Below are positions 175 through 5,322 of a stretch of DNA of 5,322 nucleotides, piece by piece. Made by a program: the position numbers and the translations under genes. The notes under the pieces are model-generated. The model was given only the letters and a program-made list of their open reading frames with translations, ran no database searches and was not told the DNA's origin. This DNA comes from Verrucomicrobiota bacterium. GTDB lineage: Bacteria > Verrucomicrobiota > Verrucomicrobiae > Opitutales > CG1-02-43-26. Positions within the stretch are counted from its first letter, which is position 1. Each line of letters begins with the position of its first letter. The stretch lies in assembly GCA_013289195.1 (NCBI GenBank), contig JABDAI010000067.1, forward strand, positions 1 through 5,322, in the 5' to 3' direction.

Positions 175-201
175 AAATTTCGGAGTCTGCCTCCGAAATT
201 T
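175..201. repeat. perfect hairpin, distal member of the pair before ATPase 1
   Basis: Eleven-base arms (175-185 and 191-201) pair perfectly around the 5-base loop TCTGC. The apex GGAGTCTGCCTCC (182-194) matches the apex of the two hairpins before the second ATPase, although the stems differ. The element TTTCGGAGT, six bases, CCGAAA (178-198) recurs with identical spacing at 231-251. The stem is followed by only a few T residues, so a role as terminator for an upstream gene is possible but weakly supported. A role tied to the following ATPase is inferred from the shared apex. Confidence 0.85.
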
Positions 202-227
202 TATGAAAATTTGATATTTTTATATTG

Positions 228-254
228 AATTTTCGGAGTTAATACCCGAAAATT
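228..254. repeat. hairpin abutting the ATPase 1 start codon
   Basis: Nine-base arms (228-236 and 246-254) pair perfectly around a 9-base loop. The right arm ends six bases before the ATG at 261, so in the mRNA the structure would sit where a ribosome binds. It looks like a diverged copy of the 175-201 hairpin: TTTCGGAGT and CCGAAA are kept at the same 21-base span, 15 of 21 positions are identical, and the apex has drifted. The same placement, five bases before the ATG, is seen at the second ATPase. Confidence 0.8.
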
Positions 255-260
255 GCAAAA

Positions 261-1448
261 ATGGAGCTATTAGAAAGAAAAATTTATCTAGAAGATATAA
301 GGAAGCGATTGAAAAATTATCCAGTTACAATGCTCTTAGGAGCGAGACAGACTGGAAAAACAACTTTGGCACGGGAAATTATGGCGGAATTTAAGGAGCG
401 GGGGGAAACAGTACATTATTTTGATTTAGAATTGCCGAGCGATTTGCAGAGTTTAAAAGAACCACAGCATACATTAGAGGGATTAAAGGGATTGATCATC
501 ATCGATGAAATTCAAAGAAAAGAAGATTTATTTCCATTATTAAGAGTGCTTTCGGACCGTAGACCATTACCAGCTAGATTTTTGTTATTGGGGAGCGCAT
601 CAGGAAAGTTGATGAGGCAGACATCGGAATCTTTGGCTGGGAGGATTGCATATTTGGAATTGCCGGGATTTAATATTTTAGAAGTCGACAAGAATGAAAG
701 TGAAAAATTATGGTTGAGGGGAGGATTTCCAGAGTCATTCCTAGCTGAGAGTAATGAGGATAGCCTCATTTGGAGAGAAAATTTCATGAGAACTTTTTTG
801 GAACGGGATATTCCATCGTTTGGAGTGAAGGTATTGCCGGCAGATTTATGGCGATTTCTGCAAATGGCAGCACATTATCATGGACAGACTTGGAATAGTA
901 GCGAAATTGCAAAATCGCTTCAAATTTCGGATAAAACAGTGAAAAACTATTTGGATATATTTACAGAGACATTTATAGTGAGACAGTTGGCTCCCTGGTA
1001 TGGGAATCTAAGCAAGCGTGTAGTAAAATCACATAAATTTTATATTAGGGATTCGGGAATTTTGCATGCACTATTAAGAATTAATTCCCGCGATGAAATA
1101 CTAAGGCATCCCAAGCTAGGTGCGTCATGGGAGGGATTTGCATTGGAACAATTAATAGAATTGGGCAGAGGAGGTTATGATGCTTATTTTTGGAATATCT
1201 ATAATGGAGCAGAAATGGACCTTATTATGCACTTAAAAGGAAAGCGATGGGGATTTGAAGTCAAATATGCAGATGCACCAAGTATCACTAAGTCTATGCA
1301 TGTGGCAAAGGATACATTGGAATTGGAGCACATATTTGTTGTTTATCCTGGAAGCAGAAGGTATTACTTAGGCGAGAGAATAGAAGCAATTCCTTTGAAC
1401 GAAGCTTGTACAGTTTTGGCAAATCTTACTAACCTCAGTTCAGGATAA
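261..1448 (+). CDS. AAA-type ATPase with DUF4143 (PD-(D/E)XK-like) C-terminal domain, copy 1
   Basis: This 395-residue protein has the full layout of the COG1373-type ATPase family. Walker A is GARQTGKTT (27-35), Walker B is LIIIDE (78-83), the sensor-like strand is LLLGSAS (108-114) and a conserved ESLAGR follows (123-128). Next come W-L-R-G-G-F-P (151-157), FLERDI (179-184), a helix-turn-helix-like segment (about 212-231) and KFYIRDSGI (259-267). The C-terminal part carries a PD-(D/E)XK-like set: E291, D320 and E333-V-K335. The family has no settled biochemical role; ATP binding is secure, while nuclease activity is inference. It is cytoplasmic, with no signal peptide or membrane segment. 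ATG 261 is the first possible start because an in-frame TAA lies at 240-242. There is no linear Shine-Dalgarno; a hairpin ends six bases upstream and another overlaps the stop codon. Its codon use (Arg AGA/AGG, Gly GGA/GGG) and G-rich coding strand differ from every neighbour, including its paralogue at 4388. Confidence 0.95.
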   Translation: MELLERKIYLEDIRKRLKNYPVTMLLGARQTGKTTLAREIMAEFKERGETVHYFDLELPSDLQSLKEPQHTLEGLKGLIIIDEIQRKEDLFPLLRVLSDRRPLPARFLLLGSASGKLMRQTSESLAGRIAYLELPGFNILEVDKNESEKLWLRGGFPESFLAESNEDSLIWRENFMRTFLERDIPSFGVKVLPADLWRFLQMAAHYHGQTWNSSEIAKSLQISDKTVKNYLDIFTETFIVRQLAPWYGNLSKRVVKSHKFYIRDSGILHALLRINSRDEILRHPKLGASWEGFALEQLIELGRGGYDAYFWNIYNGAEMDLIMHLKGKRWGFEVKYADAPSITKSMHVAKDTLELEHIFVVYPGSRRYYLGERIEAIPLNEACTVLANLTNLSSG

Positions 1449-1486
1449 GCTTATCCAACAAAAAATGTTGGATAAGCTTCTTGTTT
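1447..1486 (+). terminator. stem-loop terminator overlapping the ATPase 1 stop codon
   Basis: Perfect 14-base arms (1447-1460 and 1466-1479) flank an AAAAA loop and are followed by the T-rich CTTGTTTT (1480-1487). The stem begins inside the TAA stop codon at 1446-1448. This supports Rho-independent termination of the plus-strand ATPase transcript. The same stem lies downstream of the convergent SGNH gene, but the minus-strand sequence past it is not T-rich, so termination in that direction is less certain. The left part contains the 14-base palindrome GGATAAGCTTATCC (1443-1456). Confidence 0.75.
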
Positions 1487-1514
1487 TGAATAGTATGCAC
1501 CTGACCAGGGATAT

Positions 1515-2459
1515 CTAGTTCTCGCCTTTTCGCTTTTTCTGATTTTGAACAGGACTTTTCCTAAAAACCTTAGGTTCATTTAAAAACTTATAGGCTTCTT
1601 GACCCAATATTCTGTGGACTACTCTGCTTGGATGGAATCCATCATAAAGAAATAAATGATCATTTTCACTTAAGCCAAATGCATGGAGATTATTGGTGAC
1701 TTCATGAAAAAGAGTATAGGCATCAAAATGGTAAATCGTTATTTGTAAAGACTGCTCCAGTTCCAATAACATATGCTTAAGCTGCCGATTCAAAGTTTGT
1801 ATCCCAAAATCCGCTGCCTGATCTGCATACATAGAAAAGCTCTGACGGATAGTCGCCGTTCCTTCAAATTGAAAATAATCCCCAATCGCCGCCAATCCCC
1901 AACCTAAAACTCCGGCTGCACCTGATATAAGAGGTGTTTTCGCCAATGGTGGATAATTGGGAATCAAGAAAGTTTTAGCACCCGCTCGCGCAAGCTCTGT
2001 AATATGTTTCTTCAAATTAGGTATCAATGATTTCGGAATTATCTTATTTTTTATATCATTTCCTCCTACCCATAGAACATATAGACTTCTTGGATCTGCT
2101 TGTCCACCTACCCGTTGCAGATAAGCTTCAACTTGATGTCCAACATTTAAAAGATTGGTAGAAATGTCCCATCCTGTCGTTGCTCCCCCATAAGCAAAAT
2201 TGTATCCCCCTGCAAGACTCGGTCTAGGCCTTGGCAGATCCAATTCATCAGCCAAAACTTCTAACCAAACATCCCCATCTGTAAATCGTCCTTGAGGATA
2301 AATTATACAAATATCTGCAGGTTCTAATGCATATATACAGGCATTTCCATTACAACTAAGACTATCTCCAAATGCAACTATCCCATTGACGCCTAAACCA
2401 TAGAGCTTAGATAGTAACAAGCAAATAAAAAATAAAGATGATAAAAATAATGATTTCAT
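1515..2459 (-). CDS. secreted SGNH/GDSL-family esterase or lipase
   Basis: This 314-residue protein starts with a probable Sec signal peptide: Met-Lys, then a hydrophobic core through about residue 20. The mature part begins almost directly with the GDSL block FGDSLS (30-35; nucleophile Ser33). The second block is GRFTDGDVW (57-65) with NFAYGGATTG (87-96; oxyanion Gly), the third is WVGGND (130-135; Asn134), and the last is DGFHPS with Asp273 and His276. All four SGNH signature residues are present, so it should be active. The spacing resembles the phospholipase/lecithinase/hemolysin group (COG3240), which hydrolyses lipid esters; the substrate here is unknown. Cysteines at 36, 41 and 51 beside the active site could form a disulfide outside the cytoplasm. 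The C-terminal tail (about 296-314) is rich in Lys, Arg and Gln. It is convergent with ATPase 1 and divergent from the metallo-hydrolase. The start is chosen because it gives a proper signal peptide; no Shine-Dalgarno is visible. Confidence 0.92.
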   Translation of the reverse strand: MKSLFLSSLFFICLLLSKLYGLGVNGIVAFGDSLSCNGNACIYALEPADICIIYPQGRFTDGDVWLEVLADELDLPRPRPSLAGGYNFAYGGATTGWDISTNLLNVGHQVEAYLQRVGGQADPRSLYVLWVGGNDIKNKIIPKSLIPNLKKHITELARAGAKTFLIPNYPPLAKTPLISGAAGVLGWGLAAIGDYFQFEGTATIRQSFSMYADQAADFGIQTLNRQLKHMLLELEQSLQITIYHFDAYTLFHEVTNNLHAFGLSENDHLFLYDGFHPSRVVHRILGQEAYKFLNEPKVFRKSPVQNQKKRKGEN

Positions 2460-2481
2460 AATTTAAAATATTTAATTAAGA

Positions 2482-2509
2482 ATTTTAAACTTATTATGTG
2501 GTAAGTCAA
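2482..2509 (-). promoter_or_regulatory. predicted sigma-70-type promoter for the SGNH gene
   Basis: Read on the minus strand, TTGACT (2509-2504) is followed after 16 bases by TAAAAT (2487-2482). Each box differs from the consensus by one base. Transcription would begin near 2475, giving a very short AT-rich leader of roughly 15 bases before the ATG at 2459. This is the best-looking promoter in the window, but it is a sequence match only. Confidence 0.55.
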
Positions 2510-2547
2510 TACTTAAATAGCAAAATATCATTAAATCATTAATTGTA

Positions 2548-2553
2548 TATAAT
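2548..2553 (+). promoter_or_regulatory. possible -10 box for the metallo-hydrolase gene
   Basis: A perfect TATAAT sits 65 bases before the ATG at 2618. No convincing -35 box is found 15-19 bases upstream, so this is a weak call. If it is used, transcription would start near 2560, downstream of the TTG at 2543, which would exclude the longer N-terminus. Confidence 0.35.
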
Positions 2554-2602
2554 AGCATTATTTTTCACCACCAATTTTGCATTGAATTTTTTTTCAAAAT
2601 AT

Positions 2603-2606
2603 AGGA
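2603..2606 (+). promoter_or_regulatory. ribosome-binding site supporting the ATG at 2618
   Basis: AGGA (within TAGGAAAT) lies 11 bases before the ATG at 2618, slightly far but usable. No comparable site precedes the alternative TTG at 2543. It is one reason to choose the shorter protein. Confidence 0.5.
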
Positions 2607-2617
2607 AATTAACTTTA

Positions 2618-3601
2618 ATGTTACGCCATTTTCTCTTCCACCGAAAAAATAACTATCCCTTATCCAATCACTTTGATGGGAAAAAATTCTTTAATCCTCA
2701 TGCAAAGGAAAAATTTCCCTATTTTCGATTATTAAAATGGTTAATTAAGCGAAAGGAAGCCAAATGGCCTAAGTGGGTTCAAAACCATTATCCATGCCAA
2801 TTGCCAACTCATTTAAAAGAAAAGGAAATTGCCGTGACCTTCATTAATCACGCCTCTTTTTTAATTCAAACGGCAAATTTAAATATTCTCATCGACCCCA
2901 TTTATTCAAAACGAATCAGTCCAAGCGCCCTCATTGGCCCCAAACGAGTCCGTCTGCCCGGTATACCTTTCAAATTATTGCCCCCCGTAGATTTGATCCT
3001 TATTACTCATAATCATTATGATCATTTAGATATTCCTACTTTAAAACGCCTTAAAAAAACTCATAATCCCCTATTTATCAGCGGGTTAGGAAACAAAAAG
3101 ATTTTAAAGTCCCATGGTTTTAGGCAAGTTATTGAACTTGATTGGTGGGAAAAATATCACTATCGCAGTAGCGAAATCACTTTCGTACCCGCGCAACATT
3201 TCTCATCGCGTTCGCCCTTTGATCGCAATCAAACACTTTGGGGTGGCTTCATGGTTGAAATTCTGGGCAAAAAAATTTACCATATGGGTGATAGCGGCTA
3301 CGGCCCACATTTCCAGGAAATCCAAAAAACATTGGGTTCACCTGACGTTTCCTTGCTTTCTATAGGCTCTTATAAGCCCCGCTGGTTTATGAAAAAGATG
3401 CATATTAATCCTGAAGAAGCTGTTCAAGCACATTTGGAACTCGACTCTCAACTGACCATTCCAATGCATTTCGGCACTTTCCCCTTGAGCGATGAGCCCT
3501 TTGAACAGCCATTAGTTAATTTAGAAGCTTCTATAAAAAAACATCGTATCACAAAAATTAAAGTTCTAGACTTTGGTGAAACAGTTCTTATCCCAAACTG
3601 A
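2618..3601 (+). CDS. metallo-beta-lactamase-fold hydrolase, NAPE-PLD/RomA-like (COG2220)
   Basis: From ATG 2618 this is a 327-residue protein with all metal-binding residues of the NAPE-PLD-like branch. These are THNHYDHLD (130-138, giving His131, His133, Asp135 and His136), PAQHFSSR (191-198, His194), GDSGYG (224-229, Asp225) and PMHFG (282-286, His284). The N-terminal HFDGKKFFNP and the basic, Trp-containing stretch after it are also typical of this group, as are NHASFLIQT (77-85) and MHINPEEAV (261-269). Two zinc ions are expected. Relatives include a mammalian phospholipase D for N-acyl-phosphatidylethanolamine, but bacterial members are mostly uncharacterised, so the substrate is open. 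The frame stays open upstream to a TTG at 2543, which would add 25 hydrophobic residues. ATG 2618 is preferred because an AGGA precedes it, family-like sequence starts just after it, and a TATAAT lies between the two starts. It is divergent from the SGNH gene and 65 bases upstream of the DJ-1 gene, with no clear terminator between. Confidence 0.93.
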   Translation: MLRHFLFHRKNNYPLSNHFDGKKFFNPHAKEKFPYFRLLKWLIKRKEAKWPKWVQNHYPCQLPTHLKEKEIAVTFINHASFLIQTANLNILIDPIYSKRISPSALIGPKRVRLPGIPFKLLPPVDLILITHNHYDHLDIPTLKRLKKTHNPLFISGLGNKKILKSHGFRQVIELDWWEKYHYRSSEITFVPAQHFSSRSPFDRNQTLWGGFMVEILGKKIYHMGDSGYGPHFQEIQKTLGSPDVSLLSIGSYKPRWFMKKMHINPEEAVQAHLELDSQLTIPMHFGTFPLSDEPFEQPLVNLEASIKKHRITKIKVLDFGETVLIPN

Positions 3602-3666
3602 AGTTTTTGATCTATTAACTTTAGTTTTCGGCTAATCTTAATTCACCACACACTTAAAAAAATACT

Positions 3667-4209
3667 ATGAAAAAGAAAATCTTAACGATCCTAGCTCCAG
3701 GTTTTGAAGAAATTGAGGCCCTTACTCCCATTGATATCCTAAGGCGTGCTAATATGGAAGTCACCATCGCTGCTCTCGAAAATAACAAGCTTGTCTGCGG
3801 ACGTAATGCGATCTGTGTTCAAGCCGATGTTAAATTAAGTGAGCTTAAAGACTTGGACTTTGATGGCATCCTCATTCCCGGAGGTCCTGGGGCAAAAAAA
3901 TTGAGGGAAAGTGATGAAACTCTAAAGCTCGTCAAAGACCTTTTTGACAAAGACCGTCTCATTGCTGCGATTTGCGCTGGCCCAACAGTGCTTTTAGATG
4001 CTGGCATTTTAGTAAACAAAAAATATACTGCTCATTTTTCTCATAAAGATGAACTCCCTGATATGGAAGAAGAAAAAGTCGTCAAAGACAAAAATATCAT
4101 CACCTCCCAAGGCCCAGGAACAGCTCTTCATTTTGCCCTAGCTATTGTAGAAGCCCTTGAAGGAAAGGATGTTGTGAAAAAGATTAAAAAACATATTTGT
4201 TTCAAATAG
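3667..4209 (+). CDS. DJ-1/PfpI (ThiJ/YajL) family protein
   Basis: At 180 residues it has the usual length of the DJ-1/YajL branch. Key features are GFEEIEALTPID (12-23) with Glu17 at the position of the DJ-1 catalytic glutamate, ILIPGGPGA (68-76), and AAICAGPTVLL (100-110), the nucleophile elbow with Cys103. His123 in YTAHF corresponds to the DJ-1 histidine after the elbow. The C-terminal SQGPGTALHFALAIVEAL (147-164) closely follows the human DJ-1 equivalent. Family members are cytoplasmic and reported as glyoxalase III or deglycase-type carbonyl detoxifiers, oxidative-stress sensors or chaperones; which applies here cannot be read from sequence. The start ATG gives the canonical MKKKILTILAPGFEE opening; no Shine-Dalgarno is evident. 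It may be co-transcribed with the metallo-hydrolase upstream. A long hairpin starts 13 bases after its stop but lacks a following T-tract. Confidence 0.95.
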   Translation: MKKKILTILAPGFEEIEALTPIDILRRANMEVTIAALENNKLVCGRNAICVQADVKLSELKDLDFDGILIPGGPGAKKLRESDETLKLVKDLFDKDRLIAAICAGPTVLLDAGILVNKKYTAHFSHKDELPDMEEEKVVKDKNIITSQGPGTALHFALAIVEALEGKDVVKKIKKHICFK

Positions 4210-4221
4210 ATTTGAATTTTA

Positions 4222-4268
4222 TATCACCTTGAAAAATAGAAGTCAGTCTTCTATTTTTCAAGGTGATA
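4222..4268. repeat. perfect 21-bp hairpin A (distal, before ATPase 2)
   Basis: Arms 4222-4242 and 4248-4268 pair at all 21 positions around the loop TCAGT. The apex GAAGTCAGTCTTC (4239-4251) matches the shared motif. Together with flanking TTGAATT (4212-4218) it forms a direct repeat with hairpin B, offset by exactly 113 bases. It lies 13 bases after the DJ-1 stop codon and could end that transcript, but the sequence after it (AATATAAAT) is not a terminator T-tract. A role linked to the ATPase locus is inferred from hairpin B and from the hairpin at 175-201. Confidence 0.9.
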
Positions 4269-4280
4269 ATATAAATACCT

Positions 4281-4310
4281 ATGTTTCAAGAACTTAGAAT
4301 TCAAATTTAA
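4281..4310 (+). other. nine-codon mini-ORF between hairpins A and B
   Basis: An ATG at 4281, 12 bases after hairpin A, opens MFQELRIQI and then TAA. The context (CTATGT) equals the context of the real ATPase start at 4388 (CTATGT), and both peptides have Gln as third residue. It could be a leader peptide or the stump of a decayed earlier copy of the ATPase start. It could equally be chance, and there is no independent evidence of translation. Confidence 0.2.
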
Positions 4311-4333
4311 TCGTTGAATTTCAATTGAATTAT

Positions 4334-4382
4334 TTATATGCTTGAAAAATAGAAGTCTATCTTCTATTTTTCAAGCATATAA
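4334..4382. repeat. perfect 22-bp hairpin B abutting the ATPase 2 start codon
   Basis: Arms 4334-4355 and 4361-4382 pair at all 22 positions around the loop TCTAT. The right arm ends five bases before ATG 4388. Its upper 15 base pairs are identical to hairpin A. Three adjacent pairs in the lower stem differ from A in both arms so that pairing is kept, and only two loop bases differ. If formed in mRNA it would occlude the initiation region; if extruded in DNA it would be a cruciform target. A weak promoter-like pair, TTGAAT (4314-4319) and TATGCT (4337-4342) at 17-base spacing, would place a transcript start inside the left arm. Confidence 0.92.
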
Positions 4383-4387
4383 CATCT

Positions 4388-5322
4388 ATGTGGCAACGAA
4401 TAATTAAAACACGCTTCTTAGAACTCTCAAAGCAATTCCCTGCAATTTTCATCTTGGGTCCTAGACAGGTTGGCAAAACCACTTTGGCTCAAATGACTTT
4501 TCCTGAGGCTATTTATTATGATTTGGAAGATCCTTTGACTCAAAGTTTGTTCAAGAATGATTTTGTTTATCATTTAACAAAGGATAATGATCAAACACTT
4601 ATTTTAGATGAGGCACAAGTAGTTCCCGAAATTTTTCCAGTTTTACGCTCGGTTATCGATAAAAAAAGAAAAGTTAATGCTCAATACATTATTTTAGGTT
4701 CTGCACAACCCACACTCATACGTTCTATTTCCGAATCTCTTGCAGGTCGCGTAGGAATGATTGAACTTTCGCCTCTTATGATGCAAGAAATTCATAATGG
4801 AACACCCCAATATAACTATAAAACTGCCTGGCTTAAGGGTGGATTTCCCGATGCTATTCAAGGTGATTTTAGAACCTGGTGGGAAAATTATTTAAGAACT
4901 TTTATAGAACGCGATCTTAGCATGTGGGGAATTAATACAGATCCCATTCTGATGAGGCGATTTTTAACAATGTTAGCTCATCAGCAAGGAGGCATTTTCA
5001 ATGCAAGTGAATTTGGACGCGCATTAGGCGTTACCTATCATACTGTTAACAGATATCTTGCCATTTTAGAACAGACTTTTCTGATTAGACAATTACAGCC
5101 TTACTACATCAATATTAAAAAACGCTTGGTCAAATCTCCTAAAGTCTATATCCGCGATTCAGGACTCCTTCATCATTTGCTCAATATCAGTACTTTTCAA
5201 GAACTCGAATCCAATTCCATTATTGGACAAAGTTGGAAAAGCTTTGTTCTAGAGGATATTCTTCGTAGAGAACAAGCAAGCAATCCATTTACACAGTTCT
5301 TTTTCTGGCGCACACAAGCCGG
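4388..5322 (+). CDS. AAA-type ATPase with DUF4143 domain, copy 2 (cut by window end)
   Basis: The frame is open from ATG 4388 to the right edge: 311 complete codons, no stop. It is a clear paralogue of the ATPase at 261. Walker A is GPRQVGKTT (24-32), Walker B is LILDE (71-75), the sensor-like strand is ILGSA (102-106), and ESLAGR (116-121) is identical in both copies. W-L-K-G-G-F-P (148-154), FIERDL (172-177), a helix-turn-helix-like segment (about 205-224) and KVYIRDSGL (252-260) follow in the same order. The cut falls near residue 311 in FFFWRTQA, so the later nuclease-like residues (the Asp and E-x-K) lie outside the window. Where copy 1 has G-x-S-W-E (Glu291), this copy has G-Q-S-W-K (Lys284), losing the first acidic residue of the PD-(D/E)XK-like set. 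Codon use (CGC/CGT for Arg, mixed Gly codons) resembles the neighbours rather than copy 1. A hairpin ends five bases before the start and there is no linear Shine-Dalgarno. Confidence 0.93.
   Translation, partial: MWQRIIKTRFLELSKQFPAIFILGPRQVGKTTLAQMTFPEAIYYDLEDPLTQSLFKNDFVYHLTKDNDQTLILDEAQVVPEIFPVLRSVIDKKRKVNAQYIILGSAQPTLIRSISESLAGRVGMIELSPLMMQEIHNGTPQYNYKTAWLKGGFPDAIQGDFRTWWENYLRTFIERDLSMWGINTDPILMRRFLTMLAHQQGGIFNASEFGRALGVTYHTVNRYLAILEQTFLIRQLQPYYINIKKRLVKSPKVYIRDSGLLHHLLNISTFQELESNSIIGQSWKSFVLEDILRREQASNPFTQFFFWRTQA

Follow-up and report, generated by a model that had tools for sequence, protein, structure and literature searches.

Palindromes abutting the start codons of DUF4143 ATPase genes as probable operators for the encoded proteins

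Restriction-modification C proteins, antitoxins and phage-type repressors are DNA-binding proteins which act on dyads lying over their own promoters. Other systems comparable with the COG1373/DUF4143 ATPases are the archaeal ATPases PABY2304 (2qen) and SSO1545 (2fna) and the STAND proteins Avs5, CED-4 and plant NLRs, matches to which cover mainly residues 1–305 and barely the DUF4143 part (about residues 300–395); we know of no autoregulation of 2qen or 2fna. For the COG1373/DUF4143 ATPases themselves, neither a regulatory site nor any regulation was found in titles and abstracts, which leave the subscription literature mostly uncovered. In one report (PMC4406477), T. thermophilus TT_P0211, a gene with AAA 14 and DUF4143 motifs, is listed as changed 6.6-fold in plasmid-bearing relative to plasmid-free cells. 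Here we analyse a contig of 5322 bases from a Verrucomicrobiota bacterium (JABDAI010000067.1, the whole of it referred to as the window), which encodes two DUF4143 ATPases, each behind a pair of palindromes.

We consider it probable (about 0.8) that these palindromes are operators, and that a DUF4143 ATPase binds the palindrome on its own promoter through a helix-turn-helix (HTH), in negative autoregulation. This proposal is based on the enrichment of palindromes before genes of the family, their overlap with the promoter, the parity of their axes, their few copies per searched genome and the covariation of their half-sites with the recognition helix. Binding, dimerisation and an auxiliary function for the second palindrome at each window gene are inferred.

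Palindromes over the promoters of the ATPase genes

ATPase 1 (positions 261–1448, forward strand, ATG at 261, stop at 1448, 395 aa) and ATPase 2 (4388–5320, forward strand, ATG at 4388, truncated by the window end without a stop) both contain AAA_14, an HTH and DUF4143, as judged by Pfam and, for ATPase 1, an AlphaFold2 model. The AAA_14 and DUF4143 domains score 84.2 and 143 bits in ATPase 1 and 88.1 and 123.1 bits in ATPase 2, all above the Pfam gathering scores, which places both proteins in the COG1373/DUF4143 family, as the initial annotation of this DNA had stated.

The four inverted repeats listed in that annotation were recovered at 175–201 and 228–254 before ATPase 1 and at 4222–4268 and 4334–4382 before ATPase 2, the nearer ones ending 6 and 5 bases from the respective ATG. 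The nearer ATPase 1 palindrome, the proposed main operator, has its axis at −20 from the ATG and half-sites TTGAATTTTCGGAG and, on the other strand, TTGCAATTTTCGGG, which extend a few bases past the hairpin; the second palindrome (175–201), a proposed auxiliary operator, has the same inner half-site TTTCGGAG and an axis 53 bp farther upstream. At ATPase 2, the proposed main operator is a perfect 22-bp palindrome (4334–4382) with its axis at −30 and half-site CTTGAAAAATAGAAG, and the proposed auxiliary operator is a perfect 21-bp palindrome (4222–4268) which repeats these half-sites and is centred 113 bp farther upstream. Within each locus the two are indeed copies of each other, with 70% identity over 27 nt at ATPase 1 and 78% over 72 nt at ATPase 2. 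The ATPase 2 hairpins, with scores of 21 and 22 against a best of 12 in 1000 dinucleotide shuffles, are far beyond chance. Those of ATPase 1 are singly weak, since a score of 9 is matched by 73 of 1000 shuffles and a score of 11 by 4 of 1000, and their case therefore depends on comparison with the family.

Relatives for this comparison are very common, with at least 7999 among the 8000 best-word-sharing candidates scored. When genome contigs were scanned with ATPase 2, one relative was returned, in a Nitrospirae metagenome-assembled genome (L001), which was used as the centre for drawing genomes of its phylum; DUF4143 was present in 88 of 148 genomes so drawn, and 173 of 395 contained an ATPase 2 relative at E ≤ 1e-20. 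Out of 184 ATPase frames, 177 had a Walker A motif and 156 of these a usable start with 150 bp upstream, and removal of near-identical genes left 154, including the two of the window, of which 151 were aligned. These 154 derive from a subset of all matches, namely the best-scoring ones given as loci plus 100 hand-picked regions. The first ATG lies 23–25 codons before Walker A in 150 of the 177 frames, a constancy which indicates that the gene starts are well placed. The controls were 239 frames of 200 aa or more which neighbour the ATPase genes in the same loci, with the first ATG of each taken as its start.

Within 150 bp upstream, a hairpin scoring at least 9 precedes 61 of 154 DUF4143 genes but 8 of 239 neighbouring genes, and one scoring at least 12 precedes 35 of 154 and none of the controls; about 1% of dinucleotide shuffles reach 9. 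With the identical first-ATG rule applied to both sets and a wider region, the counts are 61/154 and 11/239. When imperfect dyads are allowed, with an axis between −48 and −8 and the window genes excluded, scores reach 8 in 113/152 genes (controls 22/239) and 10 in 71/152 (controls 4/239). The initial annotation's assignment of the palindromes to the ATPase gene unit is thus borne out, such hairpins being far rarer before neighbouring genes. Its idea of a recurring layout holds for the start-abutting palindrome, which is a family trait, but not for the pair: a second upstream copy of the gene's own operator was present in one of 108 genes tested, the window's ATPase 2, ATPase 1 standing outside this test with only 260 upstream bases in the window. 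Pairing of palindromes is therefore not general.

When aligned on the start codon, the family displays a −35 box (TTGCAA, TTGACA) spanning −35 to −30 and a TATAAT-like −10 box spanning −12 to −7, and a −35/−10 pair scoring at least 8 just before the start is found in 83% of ATPase genes versus 10% of controls. In the 128 genes with such a pair, a gap of 6 separates it from the start in 64, the spacer is 17 in 97 and the −10 box lies 5–9 bases from the start in 124. Shine–Dalgarno-like 4-mers precede 4% of ATPase genes versus 30% of controls. Judging from these sequences, DUF4143 ATPase genes are apparently leaderless and the palindromes lie on the promoter, with dyad axes falling at −22 to −17 (45 genes), −36 to −29 (27) and −43 to −37 (18). 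ATPase 1 has a promoter-like TTGAAT-17-GAAAAT (225–253, forward strand) under its palindrome, 7 bases from the ATG. ATPase 2 has no good −35/−10 pair directly before its ATG and its promoter is less clear than in the family; both its palindromes contain a promoter-like TTGAAA-17-TATTTT on each strand.

Each ATPase would contact its palindrome through the HTH between the AAA and nuclease-like parts, probably as a symmetric dimer, and would then shut down its own transcription, with the second palindromes of the window acting as auxiliary operators. That the effect would be repression is suggested by the overlap of the palindrome with −35/−10.

The recognition helix and its half-site

The recognition helix of ATPase 1 (residues 224–236, positions 930–968, forward strand), located on the AlphaFold2 model and by covariation at residues 224–226, begins DKTVKNYL, and that of ATPase 2 (positions 5036–5074, forward strand), placed by alignment to ATPase 1, begins YHTVNRYL. 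A comparison of whole upstream similarity with segments of the protein failed to set the HTH apart from the rest. The covariation scans, which came after this comparison, used operators aligned on their axis in 112 genes with a dyad of at least 8; ATPase 1 entered them with another axis of equal score (−41.5) and ATPase 2 was excluded (protein below 330 aa), so that the window's main operators do not properly feed the scans. In those of Nitrospirota, the inner half-site covaries with residues 224–226, which open the recognition helix; the covariation seen in other phyla and in the window is descriptive.

The correspondences can be put as simple rules, phrased after viewing both sets, so that their p-values are descriptive. 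Helix APTV goes with TTGAAA or TTAAAA, THNTA with TTGTCAATT and AQSV with TATCCAT, while [YF]HT[VI]N is accompanied by TAGAA in 8 of 9 genes, a half-site which none of the 141 remaining Nitrospirota genes has. For helix DxKT the half-site is (C/T)GGA, a rule which is weak within Nitrospirota (2 of 9 K225 genes when applied strictly). Taking other phyla, viral contigs and the window together, 5 of 6 K225 proteins follow it.

ATPase 2, with helix YHTVN, has AAATAGAA in both its palindromes, and its 15-base half-site is best matched (13/15) by two genes among 152, both of them YHTVN. Among genes at least 40% identical to ATPase 2, those of the YHTVN type match the half-site better than the rest (8 vs 58 genes, mean identities 43.4 and 42.0, p 0.0005). 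ATPase 1, with helix DKTV, has TTTCGG in both its palindromes, and its left half-site is best matched by L097, the sole other DKTV gene among 152, which in overall similarity to ATPase 1 ranks 23 of 151. Some probes gave less clear results. The right arm of ATPase 1 best matched genes with other helices, its upstream copy tied six genes, L097 among them, and with a 10-base probe from ATPase 2 there was a tie among 12 genes, four of them YHT[VI]N. Dyad symmetry in the family reaches about 18–20 bp from the axis before fading to background, and that of the ATPase 2 palindromes slightly exceeds what an operator would need. Taken together, the stems of the two window loci, which are unrelated to each other as initially described, each fit the recognition helix of their own protein.

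These operators might instead be read by a different host regulator, since a position over the promoter would suit any repressor and the outer half-site CTTGCAAA is common to several helix classes, with no tie to the HTH. We regard this as unlikely, because paralogues within one genome have differing inner half-sites which follow the helix of their own ATPase, and similar operators accompany similar helices across genomes and phyla.

Axis parity, copies in genomes and further features

Dyads are centred on a base in 101 of 115 cases scoring at least 8 and in 85 of 93 scoring at least 9; the corresponding split is 134:132 in shuffles and 14:8 in the 22 control genes reaching 8. A fixed odd axis points to a protein holding two half-sites at a set spacing, as a hairpin would be indifferent to parity. 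RNA control of translation, suggested in the initial annotation, would require a hairpin in the 5′ leader which hides or exposes the start codon, and the long, perfect hairpins of ATPase 2, the nearer one 5 bases from an ATG with a poor promoter directly before it, would fit such a role. However, across the family the palindrome covers −35/−10 and Shine–Dalgarno-like sequences are few, so that most of the palindrome should stay untranscribed; the odd axis and the HTH covariation would have no reason, and the window has no Rfam match above gathering scores. We therefore think an RNA leader quite unlikely, the overlap being less clear for ATPase 2. The annotation had also offered a DNA or cruciform target of the encoded ATPase; a DNA target is what we favour, but the odd axis and the base-specific covariation disagree with recognition of a hairpin or cruciform as such.

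The palindromes extend to other phyla and to plasmids. A further set of 30 genes comprised 18 from plasmids, picked from 372 and 386 records, and 12 from IMG/VR contigs, which were all that the search returned and of which three are identical; 21 have a dyad of at least 8 and 17 of at least 10 (19/28 and 15/28 with identical ones counted once). Dyads were found in Octadecabacter, Sphingobium yanoikuyae, Bosea, Aminobacter, Cereibacter, Roseovarius, Rhizobium, Thiothrix, Runella (three genes), Phocaeicola and Meiothermus, and in several genes of this set CCTTGCA...TGCAAGG immediately abuts the start codon. Lactobacillus, Salipiger, Bandiella, Thermus, Sphingobium RAC03 and four IMG/VR genes stay below 8. 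An integrase/recombinase or repC gene is near the ATPase in 7 of the 18 plasmid loci (L164, L166, L197, L198, L201, L204, L205), an integrase or recombinase gene in 6.

Two operator patterns, tolerating only 2–3 mismatches, were searched in 16 genomes of relatives (10 and 6) selected for holding such ATPases. They matched 0–2 times per genome, in 13 places altogether, of which 11 are at ATPase starts and two are orphans in two Nitrospirota genomes (L183 1501–1535 and L191 1501–1535). These two have no recognisable ATPase, the ATPase set giving no tblastn match at E ≤ 1e-3 at either locus; perhaps they are relics of lost ATPase genes or targets in trans. The ATPase 2 stem had 0 matches in IMG/VR.

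In the 151 aligned proteins, the Walker A (GxxxxGK[ST]) and Walker B (DE) residues at positions 27, 32, 33, 82 and 83 are unchanged and position 34 is T or S, a conservation partly built in, as Walker A was an entry condition. In the DUF4143 part, presumably a member of the PD-(D/E)XK nuclease superfamily, E318, D320, E333 and K335 are kept in 149–150 of 151 proteins, with D320, E333 and K335 of the D...ExK motif each present in 150, a PD-(D/E)XK-type pattern which makes this part a predicted nuclease. These conserved residues, the integrase or recombinase genes near 6 of 18 plasmid loci and the two orphan sites could be taken to mean that the palindromes serve the spread of the unit, like repetitive extragenic palindromic (REP) sequences, with the ATPase using them as a recombination or cleavage site, an analogy drawn in the initial annotation. 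This is very unlikely, given the 0–2 matches per genome in the 16 genomes searched, most of them at ATPase starts, and the promoter overlap, for which it does not account. No Y1/HUH transposase domain was present among the five window proteins scanned. Chance or a general upstream trait, such as terminators or AT-richness, can hardly be the explanation, for the weakness of single ATPase 1 hairpins (73/1000 shuffles at score 9) is set against 8/239 neighbouring genes and about 1% of shuffles at the same threshold.

Some further arrangements deserve mention. The two ATPase 2 palindromes have identical inner 15-bp arms, while their outer 6–7 bp differ between copies, yet are perfectly palindromic within each. 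Upstream of the ATPase start, L179 and L203 have direct repeats (TTTCAATTGGTCG-like, about 22 bp apart) in place of a dyad, an arrangement which L013, L020, L024, L030 and L034 may resemble. L001 has a perfect 13-bp palindrome (TGACATAGTGGCAT..., 2870–2898) 72–100 bases upstream of the ATPase start, different from the start-abutting dyad of the same gene. Two features of the window go beyond the initial annotation. One is an imperfect 55-nt palindrome (94–148, ATACCATTTTCCAAATT...AATTTGGGAAATGGTAT, score 14) between the first few letters of the window and the operators of ATPase 1, with a stem unlike the operators of either ATPase. The other is a perfect 14-bp hairpin with a T-rich tail (1447–1479), which starts at the ATPase 1 stop codon and appears terminator-like, lying between ATPase 1 and a convergent GDSL esterase gene (1515–2459, minus strand). 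Genes for a metallo-beta-lactamase-fold protein (about 2618–3601) and a DJ-1/PfpI protein (3667–4209) complete the window. The best named relatives of these neighbours of the ATPases come from Verrucomicrobia and other groups, and by themselves do not fix the taxonomy of the window.

Implications and comparison with known systems

An operator before many DUF4143 genes would be a first handle on a family with a domain of unknown function: a few helix residues suggest the DNA target of each ATPase, and the operator shows where to seek the inducing signal. The data suggest that, across phyla, the gene evolves together with its palindrome as a single regulatory unit. More tentatively, and as a doubtful extension of the operator proposal, thousands of DUF4143 ATPases might be one-gene, self-addressed DNA switches, each combining a STAND-like ATPase, a DNA reader legible through a residue-to-base code and an intact nuclease motif, and each silencing itself through a palindrome rewritten together with its reader; the palindrome might also serve as a template for recognising or cutting incoming DNA, which would make these genes stand-alone defence or selfish units.

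As with REP palindromes and their associated RAYT transposases, a palindrome is coupled to a gene for a protein that probably binds it; unlike them, the palindromes described here are undispersed in the searched genomes, lie over a promoter and come without a transposase domain. The likeness to C proteins, antitoxins and phage-type repressors lies in a proposed binder acting on dyads at its own promoter, with a specificity that diverges along with the protein. Unlike in those systems, the protein proposed to bind is an AAA+ ATPase that also has a PD-(D/E)XK-like domain, and it would do so at an apparently leaderless promoter.
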